Origin: a virus
IMG/VR virus record: IMGVR_UViG_3300034071_002719
Coordinates: 1 to 27,007 of that record
Strand: one strand, 5' to 3'
DNA length: 27,007 nt
Part shown: piece after piece, positions 7,717 to 18,583 of the stretch
How positions within the stretch are numbered: the stretch's first letter is position 1
How the letters are laid out: every line of letters begins with the position of its first letter
Position numbers and translations under genes: made by a program
The notes under the pieces: generated by a model
Told to the model about the DNA's origin: nothing
The model's database searches: none
The model's input: the letters and a program-made list of their open reading frames with translations, nothing else

Positions 7717-9900
7717 TTAATCCTTGCGCTCGCGCGCCTCAACCTGTCTCATCACCTTATTGGACCAAGACTGGCCAGCGTCACCGCCCCAAAGCGCCCA
7801 CGCAATGCGACCTGCAGATGGGAATCCTTTTTCACCTGGCTTGAACCCTTCGCCCTGCTTGTCAACTTCGTGACGAGCCAAGAAGGCTCGCATCTTGCGA
7901 ACACGCGGAATGGTCATTGTGTTGCTAATAAGCATTCTAGCGGTGGTCTGCCCTGGGCCAATCCCGCCACGACCATACTCTTGTCGCCATGCAAGACCAC
8001 GCTTAGCCTCAGTCTTCACCGCGGAAGGAACATTAAGGCTAATTCCAGAGTAGTCGGCAGCTGCATACTTGTCTGAAACTTCTGATGGCCCGTGGGCATT
8101 AACAACCCCAGCCGCCCTGTATGCATCGCGAGCATCTGCGTCGCTTTCAATTGCCTCAACAACTCGTGCGTTTTCCTTGAGAATCTTAGACATTTTGTAT
8201 TTCTTGAACTGAAGCCCAGCCCCTGCCGGGAAGTCGCTGAGATGCAAATTATCGTAAGGAATGTCATTCTCCTCAAGCCACGCGCGTGTCTCTTCTAGGC
8301 GCTTAATTGATCGTGCGCTAACAATGAAGATAAGATGCGTATCGGACTTCTGACGCAAGTAGCTTGCAACAGTCTCGTTAACCTTGTCGCTGTCGTCTGA
8401 CTCAGTAAGGGCTCCGTCAATTTCTGAAACTATGACGGAGCTTCCAGTCGCCTTAGTCTCGTCAATTTCAATCGTAAGTTTTAGGCTATTCTCAAGGTCG
8501 GATGGGTTTTGATTGGGCGTATTGTTAGATCCTGGATCTGGCTCCATATCTTCTCCATCAGGTGTTTCGGTTGGCTCTGGGGTGGGGGGCTCGTTGACCG
8601 CCGCACTTCCGAACACGACCGCTTCAAGGTATTCATTGTATCTGTCCGATGGAACATAGCCCTTCGGGGTCTGGAACATGATTTGGTCACCAAGTTCCCC
8701 AATGCCATCCTGGCCGCGCTCTCGCAGAGCATCATTGATTCGGAGCCACGGCAGCCCGCCGAGCGCCATCTTGTTGTATTCGGCAATGTTCTGCTGCGCG
8801 GTTCGCCCGATCTCGGTAAAGACAAAGCGAAGGTCGGCGTCGTATCTGGCAACAACCTCTCGAGTTAGGTACTCGGCAATAAGTTCTGCGAGCGGAACAA
8901 TGCCGTTGTCGTAGGTGAACGCAGCGCCAGTCTCTGATGTGCTCTTATTCACATCAAATGAAATGCCGATGTCTTGTGGCTGAACCGCAAATACGGCGCA
9001 AATCTTTCGGGCGAGGTAGACCTGCCACTCCATGAACTGCATGTCGCGGTTTGAGGCAGCGAGTGGAAGCCACTGCATGCCCTTGCCACCGCCAGTTATA
9101 GCAATCTGGCTCTTGCCAGCAACCTCCGCTTCCCAATACGCCTTGAAAGAGTCAACCTGATCTGGCCGCACGCCCTCTCCAAGATGAAGAACACCAGGGG
9201 GCGCGGCCTGCGAAACTGCCTTTGCGTTGTAAGCGGCAGCATCAAGATCGGCAGTAATCGTTTCGGCTAGCACTTCAAGCGGAGAAAGTCCGATTGGGCT
9301 GTATGTAACTGGATTTGCAATAACGACAATCAACTCGTCGTTCCTGTATGACTCAAGTTGCTTGCCGGTGCCGTCAAGCTCATAGTATCGCGGCTTGTTC
9401 TCGTCACGACCGTCCCAAGTCGTATCAAACGCAATGCGGGCCGCGTCTTTGTTCCACAGATAAGCAATCGGATCTGCACCAACCCTAGACCCGACTTTCT
9501 TTTCAATCTCAATTGCGCCTTGGTCTAGAACGAGAATGTCTTCAATCACTGGCTCAATAAATGAGCGCCAAGACTCACCTTTTGGGTTTGGTCGGCGAAG
9601 CAACTCGCGCAGTTTCTGAACAGTTCGTGGGTCTGGGCTGTCGCCAGCGTCAGTTGAAACAATGTCCCACTTTGCGCGGCTGATCTGCTGTCGCCTCAGG
9701 TTGACCGCGGCGCGAATCCACGGATTATTGCGAGACCAGCGCCGCAGCTGATCTGTGCTCATCTTGGTGACCGTGTTCATGCCATAGGCGCCCCTAGCGT
9801 ATGGGCCAGCGTCTGGGACGAGCGAGGGTACTGCCTTCTCCACAGATTCTTGGGCGCCGCCGCCAAAGAGGCGTTGAAAAATTGATCGCTGTTCAGCCAT
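7717..9900 (-). CDS. portal protein fused to HAD-like and further C-terminal domain
   Basis: A 727-residue protein with three parts. Residues 1-430 are an HK97-type portal: NNPWIRAAVNLRRQQISRAK, DILVLDQGAIEI, YSPIGLSPLEVLAETI, the KGMQWLPLAASNRDMQF segment and FAVQPQDIG. Twelve copies form the head vertex where DNA enters. Residues 435-472 are a Pro/Glu/Asn linker. Residues 475-600 resemble a HAD phosphatase: VIVSEIDGALTE (motif I), FIVSARS (motif II), WLEENDIPYDNLHL, KKYKMSKI (motif III Lys) and ESDADARDAY (motif IV). In motif I the nucleophile position is Glu493, not Asp. Residues 620-727 form a basic domain with FLARHEVDKQGEG and IAWALWGGDAG, which I recall at the ends of other phage structural proteins. 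ATG 9900 overlaps the upstream stop (TAATG). Confidence 0.9.
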   Translation of the reverse strand: MAEQRSIFQRLFGGGAQESVEKAVPSLVPDAGPYARGAYGMNTVTKMSTDQLRRWSRNNPWIRAAVNLRRQQISRAKWDIVSTDAGDSPDPRTVQKLRELLRRPNPKGESWRSFIEPVIEDILVLDQGAIEIEKKVGSRVGADPIAYLWNKDAARIAFDTTWDGRDENKPRYYELDGTGKQLESYRNDELIVVIANPVTYSPIGLSPLEVLAETITADLDAAAYNAKAVSQAAPPGVLHLGEGVRPDQVDSFKAYWEAEVAGKSQIAITGGGKGMQWLPLAASNRDMQFMEWQVYLARKICAVFAVQPQDIGISFDVNKSTSETGAAFTYDNGIVPLAELIAEYLTREVVARYDADLRFVFTEIGRTAQQNIAEYNKMALGGLPWLRINDALRERGQDGIGELGDQIMFQTPKGYVPSDRYNEYLEAVVFGSAAVNEPPTPEPTETPDGEDMEPDPGSNNTPNQNPSDLENSLKLTIEIDETKATGSSVIVSEIDGALTESDDSDKVNETVASYLRQKSDTHLIFIVSARSIKRLEETRAWLEENDIPYDNLHLSDFPAGAGLQFKKYKMSKILKENARVVEAIESDADARDAYRAAGVVNAHGPSEVSDKYAAADYSGISLNVPSAVKTEAKRGLAWRQEYGRGGIGPGQTTARMLISNTMTIPRVRKMRAFLARHEVDKQGEGFKPGEKGFPSAGRIAWALWGGDAGQSWSNKVMRQVEARERKD

Positions 9901-10786: not shown

Positions 10787-12850
10787 GTGGACTTTAAGCT
10801 ATACACGAATGCACTGAAGGCATATACGGCCGAAAACGGCGACCTTCACGTGACGGGAACGACGTCCTCAACCATCCGAGACCTGCATGGCGACGAGATG
10901 GCTCTTTCCGCCCTCAAATCCATGGAAGACACGGCAAAGAACAATATGACCGTGTTCCTGAATCACAACTATAACGTCCCAGACGATCTTTTTGGCTCTG
11001 TGACCGACGCAAGAATCGTCAAGCGCTACGACGAAGAAAGTAGCCAAGATGTCTATGACCTTGACGTTGATGTGCGCGTAGTTGGCGAAGACGAAAACCC
11101 CCTTGCAATGAAGACCTACCGGGCCATTAAGCGCGGCGTAAAGCTTGGACTTTCTATTGGGGCCCGAGTTGACAAGGTTTCAAAGAAAAAGAGCAAGGAT
11201 GGCGAAGAGACCTATGTCATTGAAAGCGTAAAGCTTCTTGAGACGTCGGTTGTCGGCATTCCTGCAAACCAGCGCTCATACCTACAGAATGCACTTAAGA
11301 GCCTCAAGCAGGCCGAGCAAGATGGGGAACTTGAGATTGTTGAAAAGGCTACGCCAGAAGGCTTGAGCAAGGGTGACTTTGTTGCCTGGGGCTCCAGCGG
11401 CGGCACAGCCCGAGGTCTCATTGAGCGAATTGTTCGTGATGGCGAAATCAATGTTCCAGATTCAGACTTTACGATTACTGGAACCCCAGAAGACCCAGCA
11501 GCGCTTATTAGCGTGTATCGCCCTCAGGGTGATGGGTGGGTTAAGACCGACAGGCTCGTCGGTCACAAATTTTCTACGCTCCGCAAGATTGAAGCACTCA
11601 AGCCTGCGGAAGACGTTGAAAAAGATGCTATCAAGGCAGCCCCAGATTCACTGCAGGTTGGCAATTATGTCAACTGGCAGATTGGTGATCAGTCTGCCTA
11701 TGGTGAGATTGAAGAAATCATCACTGGTGGTAGCGTTGAGCTTCCTGGCTCGGAAGGGTCTGTTGAAGCATCACCGGAAAACCCGGTGGCAATTATCTGT
11801 GTCTACGCCCCACAGGGCGAAGGCTGGGAAGATAGTGGTGTGTATGTAGCTGTAAAGTTCAGCGCACTCACCCGAAGTAATCCGCCCGTAGAGGCGGAGG
11901 AAGACGAGGAGACAGAAATGTCCGAGACCGAGAAGGATCTCGTCGCCGGGGAGGTCGTTGAGACCGCCGCTGCGGAAGAGGTCATTGACGCGGAGAAGAA
12001 GACCCGCGTAACCGTAACCGTCAGCACGGAAGGCGATAAGCCAGCAGCTGACACAGCCGCTCCTGTTGCAGTAGCAGAGGAGAAGGAAGAGGAAGCAGCG
12101 CCAGAGGAAATCAAGGCTTCTGCCGAGCCGTGCGAATGCCCAGAGGGCGATTGCGGCCCAGGAGAAGTTGTTGAAGACCTTAGCGTGAAGGCCGTAGAGC
12201 CAACACCTGCCCCGGCACCTGCCCCAGCGCCCGTTGCGGCACCTGAGCCAACACCGGCTCCAGAGCCAGTGAAGGAAGAGGCGCCCAAGGCTGCTGAAGA
12301 TAAGTCTAATGTCAGCCCACGCTACAAGAGTGGCGTGAGCGATCAGGTTCTTGCTGGGATCAGCGGAATCCTTGCCGATCTCACCGAAGAGGACCGCGCA
12401 GCGGTTCTTGAAGGCCTTGGCGTCCAGAAGGACGGTGAGGAAGTGGTGGAAGAGGCCCCAATTTCTGATACTGAAGTGACCCTTGAGGTCGTTCAGGAGC
12501 CCGCCCCTGAGGTAGCCGAGGCAGTTGCCGAAGTTGCCGAAGAGGTTGTTGCCGAAGATGCGCCAGCTACTTCTCTGGAGGAAGTCGCAGCCATCGCCAA
12601 GTCGGCACTCGATGCAGCCATTTCTGCGCAGCAGGAGGTCGTTGCTGTTAAGGCAGCCATGACCGATCTGTCTGCAGAAAAGGCCAAGGTTGAGGGGGAG
12701 CTTGCGAAGGCCATGGACCTCGTTGGTCGCATGATCAACGTGCCTATGGGACGCAAGAGCGTTGGAACCAATACTGTTAAGTCCACGAATGGAGAGAAGG
12801 CCCCGTGGCTGGACCCATTCATCGCGCGTCTTCTTGACGCACAGGAGTAA
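10787..12850 (+). CDS. prohead protease-scaffold fusion with two HVA1-like domains
   Basis: A 687-residue protein. Residues 1-175 are an S78 HK97-type prohead protease: RDLHGDEM, FLNHNY with His60, KLGLSIGARVD with Ser123, and LLETSVVGIPANQ with Glu152 form the likely catalytic set and consensus. Residues 192-268 and 285-364 are two repeats of a small beta domain of the HVA1/DUF2945 type (KGDFVAWGSSGGTARG; DSDFTITGTPEDPAALI; VGHKFSTL), the second more diverged. Residues 369-500 are acidic with a Pro/Ala stretch (471-500); 510-687 is helical, with a coiled coil at about 591-640, as in scaffolds. It should direct capsid assembly, then cleave scaffold. GTG 10787 has GGAGG four bases upstream. 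A strong internal start occurs at 11918. Confidence 0.92.
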   Translation: MDFKLYTNALKAYTAENGDLHVTGTTSSTIRDLHGDEMALSALKSMEDTAKNNMTVFLNHNYNVPDDLFGSVTDARIVKRYDEESSQDVYDLDVDVRVVGEDENPLAMKTYRAIKRGVKLGLSIGARVDKVSKKKSKDGEETYVIESVKLLETSVVGIPANQRSYLQNALKSLKQAEQDGELEIVEKATPEGLSKGDFVAWGSSGGTARGLIERIVRDGEINVPDSDFTITGTPEDPAALISVYRPQGDGWVKTDRLVGHKFSTLRKIEALKPAEDVEKDAIKAAPDSLQVGNYVNWQIGDQSAYGEIEEIITGGSVELPGSEGSVEASPENPVAIICVYAPQGEGWEDSGVYVAVKFSALTRSNPPVEAEEDEETEMSETEKDLVAGEVVETAAAEEVIDAEKKTRVTVTVSTEGDKPAADTAAPVAVAEEKEEEAAPEEIKASAEPCECPEGDCGPGEVVEDLSVKAVEPTPAPAPAPAPVAAPEPTPAPEPVKEEAPKAAEDKSNVSPRYKSGVSDQVLAGISGILADLTEEDRAAVLEGLGVQKDGEEVVEEAPISDTEVTLEVVQEPAPEVAEAVAEVAEEVVAEDAPATSLEEVAAIAKSALDAAISAQQEVVAVKAAMTDLSAEKAKVEGELAKAMDLVGRMINVPMGRKSVGTNTVKSTNGEKAPWLDPFIARLLDAQE
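11918..12850 (+). CDS. possible internally started scaffold protein
   Basis: Within the protease gene, ATG 11918 (codon 378) is preceded by GAGGAG with a six-base gap, as good as any start in the window. It sits at the junction between the protease/HVA1 part and the acidic, Pro/Ala-rich, coiled-coil part. Initiation here would give a 310-residue free scaffold in the same frame. In lambda, the scaffold Nu3 is made in this way from inside the protease gene C. GAGGAG could simply encode the acidic run there, so this is an inference. Confidence 0.45.
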   Translation: MSETEKDLVAGEVVETAAAEEVIDAEKKTRVTVTVSTEGDKPAADTAAPVAVAEEKEEEAAPEEIKASAEPCECPEGDCGPGEVVEDLSVKAVEPTPAPAPAPAPVAAPEPTPAPEPVKEEAPKAAEDKSNVSPRYKSGVSDQVLAGISGILADLTEEDRAAVLEGLGVQKDGEEVVEEAPISDTEVTLEVVQEPAPEVAEAVAEVAEEVVAEDAPATSLEEVAAIAKSALDAAISAQQEVVAVKAAMTDLSAEKAKVEGELAKAMDLVGRMINVPMGRKSVGTNTVKSTNGEKAPWLDPFIARLLDAQE

Positions 12851-12856
12851 AAAATT

Positions 12857-14092
12857 ATGAGCGACTCACTTCGCGAGAAGCTGCAGGACGTTCACAAGGG
12901 ACTTGAGTCCCTGAACGACACCGCAATCGTTGCCCGAGATGGTGGCGATAATCTGGACGTCGCCGAGGCTTATGCTGTTCAGCGCGAACTTCGCAAGAAG
13001 TTTGGCAAGATGAACACGTCAGAGCTCGGTGAGGCCCTTGACATTCAGGCAGGTCGCGAGACGGGGAAGCAGGCTTCGGCTGATATCCTCAACCGCCTTG
13101 CGGCAGCAAACCCAAACATTACGAAGTTGCTGGACGCCAGCGGCGGAGCGGCTCTTATCCGACAGGACCTTGAGCCAATCCTCTATTCGCTGTTCGTAAA
13201 GCGCTTCCCATTCTTTGAGCGCATCCGCAAGGAGCCAGCAAACGGCCTCGTGCACGCGTTCAACCAGCAGACCGCTTACGGTGACGCCGTCTTCCAGACG
13301 GAGACCGGCACCGTGACCGATGATGCCGCGACCTACGCTCGCCAGACGACTAACGTCGCCGTGCTTGCGACCCGCCGTGGCATCACGCTGAAGAGCCAGT
13401 TCGCCCTTACGCAGGGTGGCTCGCCTTTCAACGGTCTTTCTTCGGAACTTGGCTCTGGCGTAACCGCCATCGCTGCTAAGCTTCAGAAGACTCTCTTCCA
13501 GGGCAACGCCACGGTCACCTCTGGTGCAGGCGCGACCACTGAGCTCGGCGCGTATGACGCGAACGGGTTTGATGGTCTCCGCAAGCTCTTGGGTTCGGCT
13601 GCTGGACAGGGCGAGATCGTAACGAAGGGCACCGCTGCCTATCTCGATACGATCAATAACGCTGTTGCCGCTGTTCTTGACAACGGTGGAAACCCATCGG
13701 CAATCCTTTGCTCGCCAACGGATTACGCTGGTCTTGTCAACGAGTTGACGAACCTTGTCCGCTACAACGCACCTGCACAGTCCGATCAGGCTGCAGGCGC
13801 TACGTTCGGTCAGGTTGTCACCGCTGCAGGCGCTCTCCCAATCCTTGCGGTTGCGGGCGATTCCATCGGGTCATACACGGTCACTTCGCCGACTACGGCG
13901 AACTACCGCGATATGTACGTCGTTGACGAGGACACGTGGAGCATGCCGTACCTCGGTGCGGACAGCATCACGACCCTTGAGATCCCAGTTGGGGTCAACG
14001 GTGCCCTTTCGCGCCTCTACATCATGTATGTGATGTTCGGCCTTAGCAACAAGGCTCCGCAGTTCAACGCGAAGATTCGCGTTACCGTCTAA
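12857..14092 (+). CDS. HK97-fold major capsid protein
   Basis: A 411-residue major capsid protein. The N-terminal 90 residues are helical and charged, like the delta domain that the protease removes. The body shows typical features: RQDLEPILYSLFVKRFPFFE, TGTVTDDAATYARQTTNVAV, a central LFQGNATV...ELGAYDANGFDGLRKLL, AAVLDNGGNPSAILCSPTDYAGL and the C-terminal IPVGVNGALSRLYIMYVMFGL. It follows the protease-scaffold gene by six bases with AGGAG before the ATG. The gene is distinctly richer in G/C third positions and more codon-uniform than its neighbours, as expected for the most abundant product. A strong hairpin terminator follows. Confidence 0.93.
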   Translation: MSDSLREKLQDVHKGLESLNDTAIVARDGGDNLDVAEAYAVQRELRKKFGKMNTSELGEALDIQAGRETGKQASADILNRLAAANPNITKLLDASGGAALIRQDLEPILYSLFVKRFPFFERIRKEPANGLVHAFNQQTAYGDAVFQTETGTVTDDAATYARQTTNVAVLATRRGITLKSQFALTQGGSPFNGLSSELGSGVTAIAAKLQKTLFQGNATVTSGAGATTELGAYDANGFDGLRKLLGSAAGQGEIVTKGTAAYLDTINNAVAAVLDNGGNPSAILCSPTDYAGLVNELTNLVRYNAPAQSDQAAGATFGQVVTAAGALPILAVAGDSIGSYTVTSPTTANYRDMYVVDEDTWSMPYLGADSITTLEIPVGVNGALSRLYIMYVMFGLSNKAPQFNAKIRVTV

Positions 14093-14157: not shown

Positions 14158-14430
14158 ATGAACAAAAATCTTCACTTTATTGGAGAGATTGCCAAGACGG
14201 TGGCGAGGAGCTACAACCCTAATGTTCGGGTTTTAGTCTCTGGCCCGTATGAGGGCCGGGTTCAACTTCCGGATGGGTACACAGCAAAATTTGACAGCAG
14301 CGGCAGGGCATCAATACCGCGAAAAAGCCTTGGCGCAGCCAACGCAATCGGGATTAGGAAGGTTCCTGCGCCTCGGAAGAGTCGGAAGCGCCGGCGGCAA
14401 CGACCTGAAGGGCAGCCGCATCAAAGGTAA
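14158..14430 (+). CDS. small hypothetical protein after capsid terminator
   Basis: A 90-residue frame. The first 65 residues look like a folded beta-rich domain (VRVLVSGPYEGRVQLPDG; FDSSGRASIPRKSL); the last 25 are Arg/Lys/Pro rich (RKSRKRRRQRPEGQPHQR). The final 77 bases overlap the converging glycosyltransferase gene on the other strand, so the basic tail could be an artefact of antisense coding. No Shine-Dalgarno is visible; the TATTTT at the foot of the terminator lies seven bases before the ATG. A minor capsid or DNA-binding role is possible. Moderate confidence that it is expressed. Confidence 0.5.
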   Translation: MNKNLHFIGEIAKTVARSYNPNVRVLVSGPYEGRVQLPDGYTAKFDSSGRASIPRKSLGAANAIGIRKVPAPRKSRKRRRQRPEGQPHQR

Positions 14431-15235
14431 AGTGCATTGTGCCGTAGTGCCTTGTAACTGCATCTACCTTCATCCAAATCTCCCCGCCAATATCCCTCCA
14501 GTCATGACAGAAGGTAAAGTCCTCCCCGATGAAGAAGTTCTCTTCATCTCTTGAGTAGCGGAAGTACTCAAAGATTTCAGTAGGCATATTCTTTTTGCGC
14601 TCTTCCTCGGTATCGCCATTCGGCTCAAGGTATTTTCTGTCTGGAAATGACTCTTGAAATTTTTCAAATACAGATCGGTGAAGCACCACGCAACCAGTTC
14701 CCACCTTTTCGGCGCGAACGAAATTAAGATCCAATGCGACTTGGTCTAGGTCTTTTGTTGAGTCTTCGTTCACGACAAAGTTTGGGGTTGACAAATAAGA
14801 TGAAAGGTACTCTGGCTGAGCCTGCGGGCCAGCCGCTAGGACGTAGTCCTGCATCCGCTTAAGGTTCGGAGACCTCTTTGAGCACGGAAGGCCAACAAAG
14901 GGCTTGCCGCTCAAGACAGCGGCTAGAACGTCCTGCGCCTGAACTTCAATGTCTCCATCAATCATGACGAGATAGTCATACCCACTTGCCATAAACTTTG
15001 AAATGATTCTGTTTCTTGCAAGCGGAAGGATTGACATCCCCCACACAATGTTCCATCCAAACTTAAGGCCGAACTTTGAGCAGGCTCGTTGAATGTCAAG
15101 CACTGACTTGGTGTATCCCCAGCTTACGCTCCCCTCAAGAGAGGGCGTTGAGACATACACTTTTGGCAGGGCAATCTGCTCTTGCTGCTCTGCTGCCAGC
15201 TGTGCTTCCCTATTTGCTCGTGACTTCTTGCTCAT
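14354..15235 (-). CDS. GT-A type glycosyltransferase
   Basis: A 293-residue protein. The N-terminus is a charged lead (MSKKSRANREAQLAAEQQEQ); then KVYVSTPSLEGSVSWGY begins a GT-A Rossmann-like fold. RNRIISKFMASGYDYLVMID (74-93) leads into the DxD motif Asp93-Gly94-Asp95 that binds metal and sugar nucleotide. GTGCVVLHRSVF and GEDFTFCHDWRDIGGEIW (237-254) match acceptor/catalytic regions, with His263 near the end. It could glycosylate modified DNA bases, virion proteins or host surface polymers; the substrate cannot be read. It is opposite in direction to the surrounding structural genes. ATG 15235 has GGGAGG four bases upstream; the open frame continues further but across the promoter. Confidence 0.85.
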   Translation of the reverse strand: MSKKSRANREAQLAAEQQEQIALPKVYVSTPSLEGSVSWGYTKSVLDIQRACSKFGLKFGWNIVWGMSILPLARNRIISKFMASGYDYLVMIDGDIEVQAQDVLAAVLSGKPFVGLPCSKRSPNLKRMQDYVLAAGPQAQPEYLSSYLSTPNFVVNEDSTKDLDQVALDLNFVRAEKVGTGCVVLHRSVFEKFQESFPDRKYLEPNGDTEEERKKNMPTEIFEYFRYSRDEENFFIGEDFTFCHDWRDIGGEIWMKVDAVTRHYGTMHFTFDAAALQVVAAGASDSSEAQEPS

Positions 15236-15254
15236 GTTACCTCCCTGGCTAAGT

Positions 15255-15263
15255 ACTATACCA
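15255..15263 (-). promoter_or_regulatory. extended -10 promoter of the glycosyltransferase
   Basis: Minus strand TGGTATAGT: TGn plus a 5-of-6 -10 box. No clear -35, as allowed for extended -10 promoters. The predicted transcript has a leader of about 13 bases that contains GGGAGG. Confidence 0.6.
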
Positions 15264-15284
15264 CGCCCGTAGATCGTTTGTGGG

Positions 15285-15313
15285 TGGACTATTGGGGCAT
15301 AAAAGTCCACAAT
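15285..15313 (+). promoter_or_regulatory. rightward promoter, predicted leaderless, for neck genes
   Basis: Plus strand: -35 TGGACT (15285-15290, 4 of 6), 17-base spacer, -10 CACAAT (15308-15313, 4 of 6), then six bases and ATG 15320, with no Shine-Dalgarno. Weak individually, but it has exactly the geometry of the stronger promoters at 7528 and 19053. Confidence 0.5.
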
Positions 15314-16561: not shown

Positions 16562-17118
16562 TGGCAAAAGCAACACTAGGTAGCCGCGGAACTATTTCTG
16601 GCCTAGAGTCAAGCATCAGGATGCTTAAAGACCTTACTAAGGCACTTAAAAGCGATGCCTCTCTTGGGGCAATTAACTTGATGCAAGACATTGCATTCAA
16701 GAAGATTGAAGAGGCTGTATACGGAGACAAATACGGCAAAAGCCTAGCGCAGATATTCAGCCGCACGCGACCAAAGACTAAGGGCGGCTACACATCAAAG
16801 AAGAAGGGTTCCGGCACCCCAGTTGACACTGGGAGGCTGCAAAACGCTCTTGTGATTCCAGATGCACCATATGGGATATTTAAGCGCAACCGAGGCTCTC
16901 GTGGTCATTTTAGCGTGACCTATGGCGCAGATCCAGTTGACCCAGACAACGAAAACGAGCGATATTTTGCCAAGGTTGAGCGCAGGTACAAGTTTTTCTC
17001 TGAGGGACTTGATGAGTTTGAAAAACAAGAGACAATGGAAAACCTCGGCAAGGATCTTGCCGAGGTCTTCACGCGTCAGGTCAGAAACCGACTAGCGCGG
17101 CAATTGCGAAGGCGCTAA
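16561..17118 (+). CDS. HK97 gp10-like neck/tail component
   Basis: A 185-residue basic protein. The signature GTPVDTGRLQNALVI (about 80-94) is the PxDTGxL motif of the HK97 gp10 / minor tail family that lies in the head-tail junction. Upstream is a lysine-rich stretch (SRTRPKTKGGYTSKKKGS); downstream are beta strands (GHFSVTYGAD) and a helical C-terminus rich in Arg. ATG overlaps the previous stop by one base. The gene converges on the metallophosphoesterase, overlapping it by four bases (17115-17118), with no terminator visible between them. Confidence 0.78.
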   Translation: MAKATLGSRGTISGLESSIRMLKDLTKALKSDASLGAINLMQDIAFKKIEEAVYGDKYGKSLAQIFSRTRPKTKGGYTSKKKGSGTPVDTGRLQNALVIPDAPYGIFKRNRGSRGHFSVTYGADPVDPDNENERYFAKVERRYKFFSEGLDEFEKQETMENLGKDLAEVFTRQVRNRLARQLRRR

Positions 17119-18332
17119 TCGCAGTTCAAAACCTTTAGGTCGTCCCACCCGCGCTTGCCGACCGTGAGAGTCAGCATTCCGCCTGGGGACTCAATGCCAG
17201 TGATCTCAGTAAACCACTGCGATCCACCGTCAAGCGACGGTGCTTGGATATGTGTTTTTGGACCGTGGGTTGCCACCTGCAAAGAGTGAAAGTGGCCCGT
17301 TAGAAGCAGGCTGGCCTCGCCAGCGGGTCGCTCGCCAAAAGACTGACCCTTCCACCAGTTTGCAATTTTACCAATTGGGTTCTGGCCACCTGATCGTGCT
17401 TGGTGACCGTGGGCAAGCCCAACAATGGTTCCGTGCACGTCAAGCGTGAGGGTTAGATTGGTGCCAGCAATCAAGAAAGACACGTGTTTGTATCTTTCTG
17501 GGTTTGCGGCAAGAATCTCTGCGACCTGCTCAAAAATAGCGAGGTCGTCGTTGTCGCCAAATGTGGTGTATGCCTTGCCGTTCTTTCGGTTCTCACCGTG
17601 ATTGCCAGGCACAGCGGCAACGATTACCCGAGGAGCCAGCTTGGACCAACGCTCAAGCGCCTTTACTAAAAGCCGACGCATAACCTTGATTTGGTCTCGC
17701 CGATCTAGGTCTACCTGGAAGCCCTGCATCGCGTAGTGGCCGTCAGTACTCTCAATGAGGTCGCCAAGCCCAACCACCACTAGCCGGTCTAGGTTCCTGC
17801 CAGCCTTAACGAGCTCCTTCCAGCGAGCCTCTACAAGGTCAATGCCTCGGTTGAATCGTTCAACGACGGCAGCAGATCCACCGCCCTCGCCCTTGCCCAT
17901 CTGTGTGTCAGACACCGCGACAACTAGTGCGGTATCGCCAGTCTCGTCTTCTGAATTTACGGGAACTGGCTTGTGCTTTTTGATCTCTTCAATAAGTTTT
18001 TCAACGTCTGCGTCTGGGCGGTTGCTCCGTGTCCTGATCTGGGCGCGGTAATAGTACATTCGCTGTACGTTTCCCTCGCCAATGTTTGAGTCCCATGTCC
18101 TAAACTGAATCGTGTCGTCAGCAATTTCAAACTGCCCAGGATCAAATCCCCACTCCTTAAGAAGCGAGTCCCAATCTGGTCTCGGCTTGTTCTGCTGCAC
18201 CGTAATTGAGCCAGTCCTTGAGTTTTCATCCCAAGCGACACCAGGCTCCCATCCTTCTGGGTGCTTTCGCTTTGGTCGGCGAGCCTCCTCTATGTCCGCC
18301 TGAACAGCTTTAAGCTTGTCAAATTCGCTCAT
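17115..18332 (-). CDS. metallophosphoesterase
   Basis: A 405-residue calcineurin-like phosphoesterase. The order is an N-terminal 130-residue charged region with WDSLLKEWGFDPGQFEI, then VVAVSDTQMGK (motif I, Asp142, with Gln where most have His), VVGLGDLIES (Asp191), VPGNHGE (Asn244-His245), GLAHGH (His308, His310) and LLTGHFHS (His347, His349). These residues bind two metals. The Asp-x-Gln form of motif I is familiar from phage enzymes. Substrate (nucleic acid, nucleotide or protein phosphate) is not readable. ATG 18332 overlaps the upstream stop (ATGA). Antisense cassette in the plus-strand structural block. Confidence 0.92.
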   Translation of the reverse strand: MSEFDKLKAVQADIEEARRPKRKHPEGWEPGVAWDENSRTGSITVQQNKPRPDWDSLLKEWGFDPGQFEIADDTIQFRTWDSNIGEGNVQRMYYYRAQIRTRSNRPDADVEKLIEEIKKHKPVPVNSEDETGDTALVVAVSDTQMGKGEGGGSAAVVERFNRGIDLVEARWKELVKAGRNLDRLVVVGLGDLIESTDGHYAMQGFQVDLDRRDQIKVMRRLLVKALERWSKLAPRVIVAAVPGNHGENRKNGKAYTTFGDNDDLAIFEQVAEILAANPERYKHVSFLIAGTNLTLTLDVHGTIVGLAHGHQARSGGQNPIGKIANWWKGQSFGERPAGEASLLLTGHFHSLQVATHGPKTHIQAPSLDGGSQWFTEITGIESPGGMLTLTVGKRGWDDLKVLNCD

Positions 18333-18583
18333 GACTGCACACACGAGCACTGCTTGCGCCTGTGGCGATTAACCGTCCAGGGCTTTGCTGACTGACCTTT
18401 GGCCTGTAGCCACGTAGAGATGGTCACAGCATCAATGCTAAAATCACCACAAGCCTGGTCAAGCGCCTCGTTCTCATCTTTGGAGATTGCGGCCTTTACA
18501 GAGGCTACCGTGCAAATGCCACCGACTCGCTTGTTTGCCTGCAACGTCTGGATCTCCCCCAGCAGGTTTGTTACTGAAGACAT
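18329..18583 (-). CDS. small putative DNA-binding protein with RHRR-CxC end
   Basis: An 84-residue protein. After a short helical start, residues 34-68 (ALDQACGDFSIDAVTISTWL and onward) look like a helix-turn-helix, followed by TVNRHRRKQCSC (71-82). I recall this HRR-x2-C-x-C ending from small phage proteins, some annotated as HTH or terminase-related, but no precise family. ATG 18583 is chosen for AAGGAG four bases upstream; a longer open frame would start inside the predicted promoter. It is translationally coupled to the metallophosphoesterase. Confidence 0.65.
   Translation of the reverse strand: MSSVTNLLGEIQTLQANKRVGGICTVASVKAAISKDENEALDQACGDFSIDAVTISTWLQAKGQSAKPWTVNRHRRKQCSCVQS

Follow-up and report, generated by a model that had tools for sequence, protein, structure and literature searches.

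The window, a virus record of 27,007 bases, encodes a 727-amino-acid phage portal protein (translation of ORF 7717-9900, minus strand) with a HAD-fold domain in its C-terminal part, in which Glu493 stands where the catalytic Asp is expected. In the reading that we favour, to which we give a probability of about 0.6, a head-borne HAD phosphatase module has repeatedly lost its catalytic role and become a part of the portal that binds phosphate or serves structurally. The protein itself is probably best described as a portal whose C-terminal arm bears two modules, first one with a capless HAD phosphatase fold and then a small helical one typical of head proteins. The portal ORF is divided as follows.

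8611..9900, minus strand: portal domain, residues 1-430 (PF04860 over residues 61-394; phrog_2662 and phrog_12, portal)
8443..8610, minus strand: Pro/Glu/Asn-rich linker, residues 431-486 (read from the translation)
8086..8442, minus strand: predicted HAD-fold domain without a cap insert, residues 487-605 (AlphaFold2 model, Foldseek, VIA-align)
8401..8427, minus strand: motif I, SEIDGALTE, residues 492-500 (translation; the Asp of relatives is replaced by Glu493)
8200..8205, minus strand: putative motif III basic pair Lys566-Lys567 (FKKY; register from a profile alignment to T4 Pnkp)
7720..8064, minus strand: third domain, residues about 613-727, predicted helical (phrog_2859, unnamed, E 1.7e-19)

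The match of the N-terminal part to the HK97-type phage portal family PF04860 (E 1.4e-41, 143.2 bits against a cut-off of 39.1) bears out the portal identity proposed in an earlier note, which was made from the letters of the DNA alone. All of the strings quoted in that note occur in the translation in the order given (SEIDGALTE, IFIVSARS, ENDIPYD, FKKYKMSK, IESDADA, ARHEVD and ALWGGDAG), and the Glu that it reported in place of the catalytic Asp is encoded by GAA (8422-8424); the second motif I Asp, Asp495, is retained. Its placement of the feature needs adjustment, as the start at 7717 takes in the stop codon and the HAD part lies at about 8086-8442. The linker is among the least conserved parts of the portal ORF in codon comparisons. 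We take the portal C-terminus to be on the lumen side, which would place the HAD module in the head lumen.

Structure prediction supports a capless HAD phosphatase fold for residues 487-605. Specifically, the AlphaFold2 model of residues 471-727, predicted from a 39-row alignment, has a mean pLDDT of 88.6, and HAD phosphatases take the top places in the PDB fold lists from both Foldseek and VIA-align, in line with the fold that the earlier note had read from the motifs and proposed to check in this way. At the top of the Foldseek list stands the LNS2 domain of Nir2 (E 2.8e-5), and the T4 Pnkp 3'-phosphatase is also returned (E 6.2e-4, target-normalised TM 0.72). VIA-align superimposes the model on T4 Pnkp (Z 17.6, 119 residues, 1.8 Å), Nir2 (Z 16.5, 129 residues, 2.2 Å) and lipin (Z 14.2, 127 residues, 2.7 Å). 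The first two strands of the predicted HAD model have no cap insert between them, as in Pnkp and LNS2. Capless HADs are linked to action on large substrates. The third domain is missing from the fold lists of this model, which says nothing on its fold.

At the level of sequence profiles, the HAD part matches Pnkp1 and T4 Pnkp. The polynucleotide kinase family phrog_415 is matched significantly over residues 504-600 only (E 2e-7), while phrog_505 is matched over residues 503-553 only; these correspond to positions 187-238 of the 295 in that profile, which belong to the phosphatase. The scores against the Pfam families PF24694 LNS2_PITM1-3 (21.2 bits, cut-off 27.7) and PF08235 LNS2 (13.3 bits, cut-off 32.3) are below threshold, and the window part by itself found no useful match when its sequence was searched against PDB. 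The protein contains no kinase domain of a two-domain polynucleotide kinase/3'-phosphatase, its remainder being portal and phrog_2859. The polynucleotide 3'-phosphatase at which the earlier note had hinted is right at the level of the fold, T4 Pnkp being the top structural match. An unrelated domain is ruled out by two structure predictions and a profile comparison, all of which give HAD; relatives keep the HAD domain, and none was found with an unrelated segment in its place.

Relatives, whose motif I the earlier note had suggested comparing, were gathered by IMG/VR scans, in which several loci are overlapping pieces of one contig. The portal set comprises 120 loci with a near-complete portal and third domain, corresponding to 59 distinct sequences. 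Both motif I Asp residues (DxD) are intact in 38 of the 59 distinct portals, and one or both are gone in 21. Specifically, the first Asp is replaced by Glu in the window and L004, and the second by Gln in L033 and L037 and by Ile in L065; L056, L058 and L059 have Gly at the first position and Glu at the second, and motif I is erased in one clade of 13. The form E-IDG is carried by four other IMG/VR records (L002, L003, L004 and L005), five with the window, which rules out a single-base sequencing error at Glu493. On the portal-only tree, with the root placed at the midpoint only, the intact or broken label of motif I requires at least 5 changes. These changes are probably losses rather than gains, because all 23 inspected HAD-bearing loci outside this portal clade (20 contigs) have DxD.

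The first position of putative motif III is Lys or Arg in 59 of 59 distinct portals, including all 21 with a broken motif I; the register of this motif comes from a profile alignment to T4 Pnkp that is weak (domain i-E 0.11). An Arg that follows motif II and does not vary in 39 aligned sequences is absent from 9 of the 21 broken ones. None of the 59 sequences has a deletion of the HAD domain, the stretch from portal to third domain always being at least 164 residues long. The window and L004 pair in the portal tree as well as in the HAD tree, where most other forks are unresolved, and the data do not require that the window alone has recently acquired a foreign HAD. In three further portals (L016, L019 and L020), which lie on a long HAD branch, DxD is intact and the motif I Thr is changed to Ala (SDIDGALT), which may be an early stage in losing activity. 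A portal with the motif I sequence DIEG (L022:2988-4961) was left out of the 59 with its third domain cut short; its frame stops early inside that domain near the contig end, where a frameshift or assembly error is possible.

The predicted fold is retained in portals that have lost motif I. Aligned to the profile of canonical HADs, the eroded clade scores an hhalign probability of 97.8% (E 1.2e-12), and L055, predicted from 17 eroded sequences, none canonical, reaches a pLDDT of 90.2, with Nir2 and T4 Pnkp on top of its fold lists (T4 Pnkp: Z 13.6, 115 residues, 2.4 Å). Between the window and L004, the HAD domain has a dN/dS of 0.21, the portal one of 0.02 and the third domain one of 0. Four eroded pairs (L048-L052, L056-L059, L052-L051 and L060-L057) give 0.03-0.17 for the HAD domain; synonymous sites are near saturation in some pairs, so these ratios are rough. 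If the nonsynonymous fraction is taken to be 0.76, neutral evolution of the HAD domain is disfavoured at p 2e-4 for the window and L004, and at lower values for the four eroded pairs. These codon comparisons indicate purifying selection on the HAD domain in the window pair and in the eroded pairs. Part of the pattern is, as far as the rates tell, relaxed constraint, because the HAD is the fastest-changing folded domain of the protein and the window lineage changes faster than its nearest DxD-bearing sister, L008 (HAD relative-rate test, p<0.05 with two of four outgroups). The corresponding test of L004 against L008 gives p<0.05 with three of four outgroups for the HAD domain, and once for the portal part.

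A doubtful alternative is that the HAD domain has drifted without a specific role since catalysis was lost, and is retained since the downstream third domain needs translation. Its faster change relative to the portal and third domain is as such drift would predict, and so are window-specific changes such as Gly503Asp at an otherwise constant HAD position and Asn586Ser at a mostly constant one. However, a domain without a role should hardly show purifying selection in the window pair and four eroded pairs, nor a high-confidence fold prediction after complete loss of motif I, and the motif III base present in every distinct portal and the lack of any deletion likewise argue against drift.

The HAD module is also fused to other head proteins. 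It lies between portal and MuF-like parts in L082 and L170, ahead of S78 proteases in L151 and L158, and inside XkdF-type proteases in L152, L156 and L163; the copies of L082, L152 and L163 exceed the Pfam cut-off of PF03767. In the copies fused to portal-MuF, S78 and XkdF-type proteases, DxD is intact. The third domain (phrog_2859, ARHEVDK...WALWGGDAG, ~110 residues) spreads more widely than the HAD: it sits at the N-terminus of S78 and ClpP-type proteases, at the C-terminus of a lambda-type portal, and also on a fusion of capsid and protease (carriers among relatives include L085, L088, L091, L100 and others). A 22-member alignment spans its portal, S78, ClpP-type and capsid fusions, with an identity to the window copy of 53-60% for most members and 27-46% for L151, L152, L156 and L158. 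Neither Pfam nor NCBIfam gave a match to the window copy, and no PDB entry of note matches the family; the module may possibly serve for docking to the procapsid. The HAD and this unnamed helical module are thus cassettes swapped among portal, protease and capsid genes.

Each of 20 records, of unstated completeness, has one HAD place and no second HAD, and phrog_505, the query for a separate polynucleotide kinase, matched only the portal in 14 of the 20 and nothing in 6. Among the matches listed for named phages (30 of 48 and 60 of 114 records), HAD queries found stand-alone genes, mostly annotated as polynucleotide kinase, or no match; in two of the named-phage searches, most of the matches listed fall on the third domain. 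For the portal part, 290 records of named phages matched, none of them above 60% identity; the identity is about 22-27% among the matches listed (40 of 290). A search of genome contigs gave one weak match.

Fusion to a portal, MuF or head protease, as found here for the HAD module, is a mark of virion-delivered head-fused effectors. Passages of PMC9503650 and PMC5512222 interpret Nudix, 2H, ART and InPase domains as host-delivered when these are fused to portal, MuF or serine peptidase, and HAD is not among the portal-fused domains that the passages describe. On this model, the HAD would be cargo that is packaged by its fusion to portal or protease, freed by the head protease and injected. Its active forms would dephosphorylate signalling nucleotides or the ends of nucleic acids, which the Glu form would sequester. 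The swapping of the module among portal, portal-MuF, S78 and XkdF-type proteases, the same kinds of host protein as for the Nudix, 2H and ART domains for which packaging and injection are proposed, speaks for such delivery, but a cleavage site or release of the HAD is a prediction only, the third domain after it would also need to be cut or to leave, and a portal arm in 12 copies is able to act in place. We regard delivery as a serious though unlikely alternative.

Conversion of the module into a non-catalytic part of the portal accommodates these observations as follows. The ancestral HAD module is likely to have been an enzyme whose substrate was large and phosphorylated, for instance the end of a nucleic acid, as suggested by the closest folds and the absent cap, and would have been kept in the head lumen via its fusion to portal or protease. 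In the window phage, the change from Asp to Glu at the nucleophile most likely abolished catalysis: among the residues of a catalytic HAD, the nucleophile Asp is lacking (Glu493), while Asp495 and, in a weak register, the motif III Lys566 are in place. The module would now most likely be a non-catalytic phosphate-ligand-binding or structural domain of the portal, like Nir LNS2, because the fold and a basic phosphate-site residue are retained. The earlier note had left the choice between a binding domain and an altered enzyme; the former, or a structural role, is favoured and the latter loses ground, since Asp loss recurs and the fold and basic residue persist. That the domain is still active, with Glu493 or another residue as nucleophile, is highly improbable: Asp495, the motif II Ser and the motif III Lys are retained, and the exchange of Asp for Glu is conservative and takes a single base change from either Asp codon, but related lineages lost the Asp outright or substituted the second Asp, other conserved positions also changed in the window lineage, and we know of no HAD with a Glu nucleophile.

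Two known proteins are close in fold. The T4 Pnkp 3'-phosphatase, the closest solved structure, is likewise a capless HAD of a phage; it differs in being a separate repair enzyme with an intact DxD and without portal or third domain, and its identity to the window domain is about 20%. Nir/PITPNM LNS2, a lipin-like pseudo-phosphatase and the top Foldseek match, resembles the window domain in lacking the motif I Asp and keeping the second Asp and a nearby Lys. According to passages of PMC12419160, SIDGS replaces DxDxT in Nir LNS2, the pocket is kept and phosphatidic acid is bound, and the nearby Lys is required for lipid binding in Nir1 LNS2. Nir LNS2 differs in that it senses membrane lipids in eukaryotes, has an Ig-like part at its N-terminus and an amphipathic helix, and is not fused to a head protein.

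More speculatively, and with low probability, the repeatedly converted HAD would sense phosphate, with pseudo-phosphatases arranged as a ring on the portal within the head lumen. They would bind DNA ends, nucleotides or some phosphorylated partner, leave it uncleaved and perhaps report on packaging, the module still being an active enzyme in relatives and head proteases. The portals form a natural series at one fixed site of a virion protein, from an intact DxD through single substitutions to total loss of the motif, along which an enzyme would become a non-enzyme. With this series it becomes testable whether portal- and protease-fused enzymes act catalytically in the host or as binders within the head.

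Enzyme fusions to portal and protease are a known class. The head-fused phage enzymes (Nudix, 2H, ART, PBECR and InPase) share the fusion to portal, MuF or head protease and are discussed as active effectors in passages of PMC9503650 and PMC5512222, whereas catalysis appears to be repeatedly lost here. A HAD_like label already exists on one relative, UniProt A0A6J5R7M5, 'HAD_like domain containing protein' of an uncultured Caudovirales phage (722 aa), where the HAD is known from the database label only; with 75% identity over 251 aligned columns, it is evidently a relative of this very portal protein. The UniProt 'Prohead protease' entry A0A6J5R419 matches both the HAD and the third domain. 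In the open-licence literature searched, we found no report of the HAD-portal fusion or of its loss of catalysis, and recurrent loss of catalysis with retention of the fold appears undescribed there.

Two other head genes lie on the strand opposite to the portal gene, the S78 protease gene being divergent from it.

10787..12850, plus strand: S78 prohead protease with Hva1_TUDOR domains (PF04586 E 5.1e-9, PF11160 E 3e-9)
12857..14092, plus strand: SU10-like major capsid protein (PF17236 E 9.7e-11)

The portal lies on the strand opposite to the protease, and to the capsid gene where seen, in 111 of 111 readable loci, repeated contig pieces included. Hva1_TUDOR is another domain common to portal and head protease, being present in the protease of the window and, in the relative L147 (106-2760), inside the portal, between the portal core and the HAD. 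Furthermore, two genes run antisense within the plus-strand structural block of the window: a weakly glycosyltransferase-like gene at 14354-15310, minus strand (phrog_1574, phrog_2456), and an exonuclease-like gene at 17115-18350, minus strand (phrog_284).
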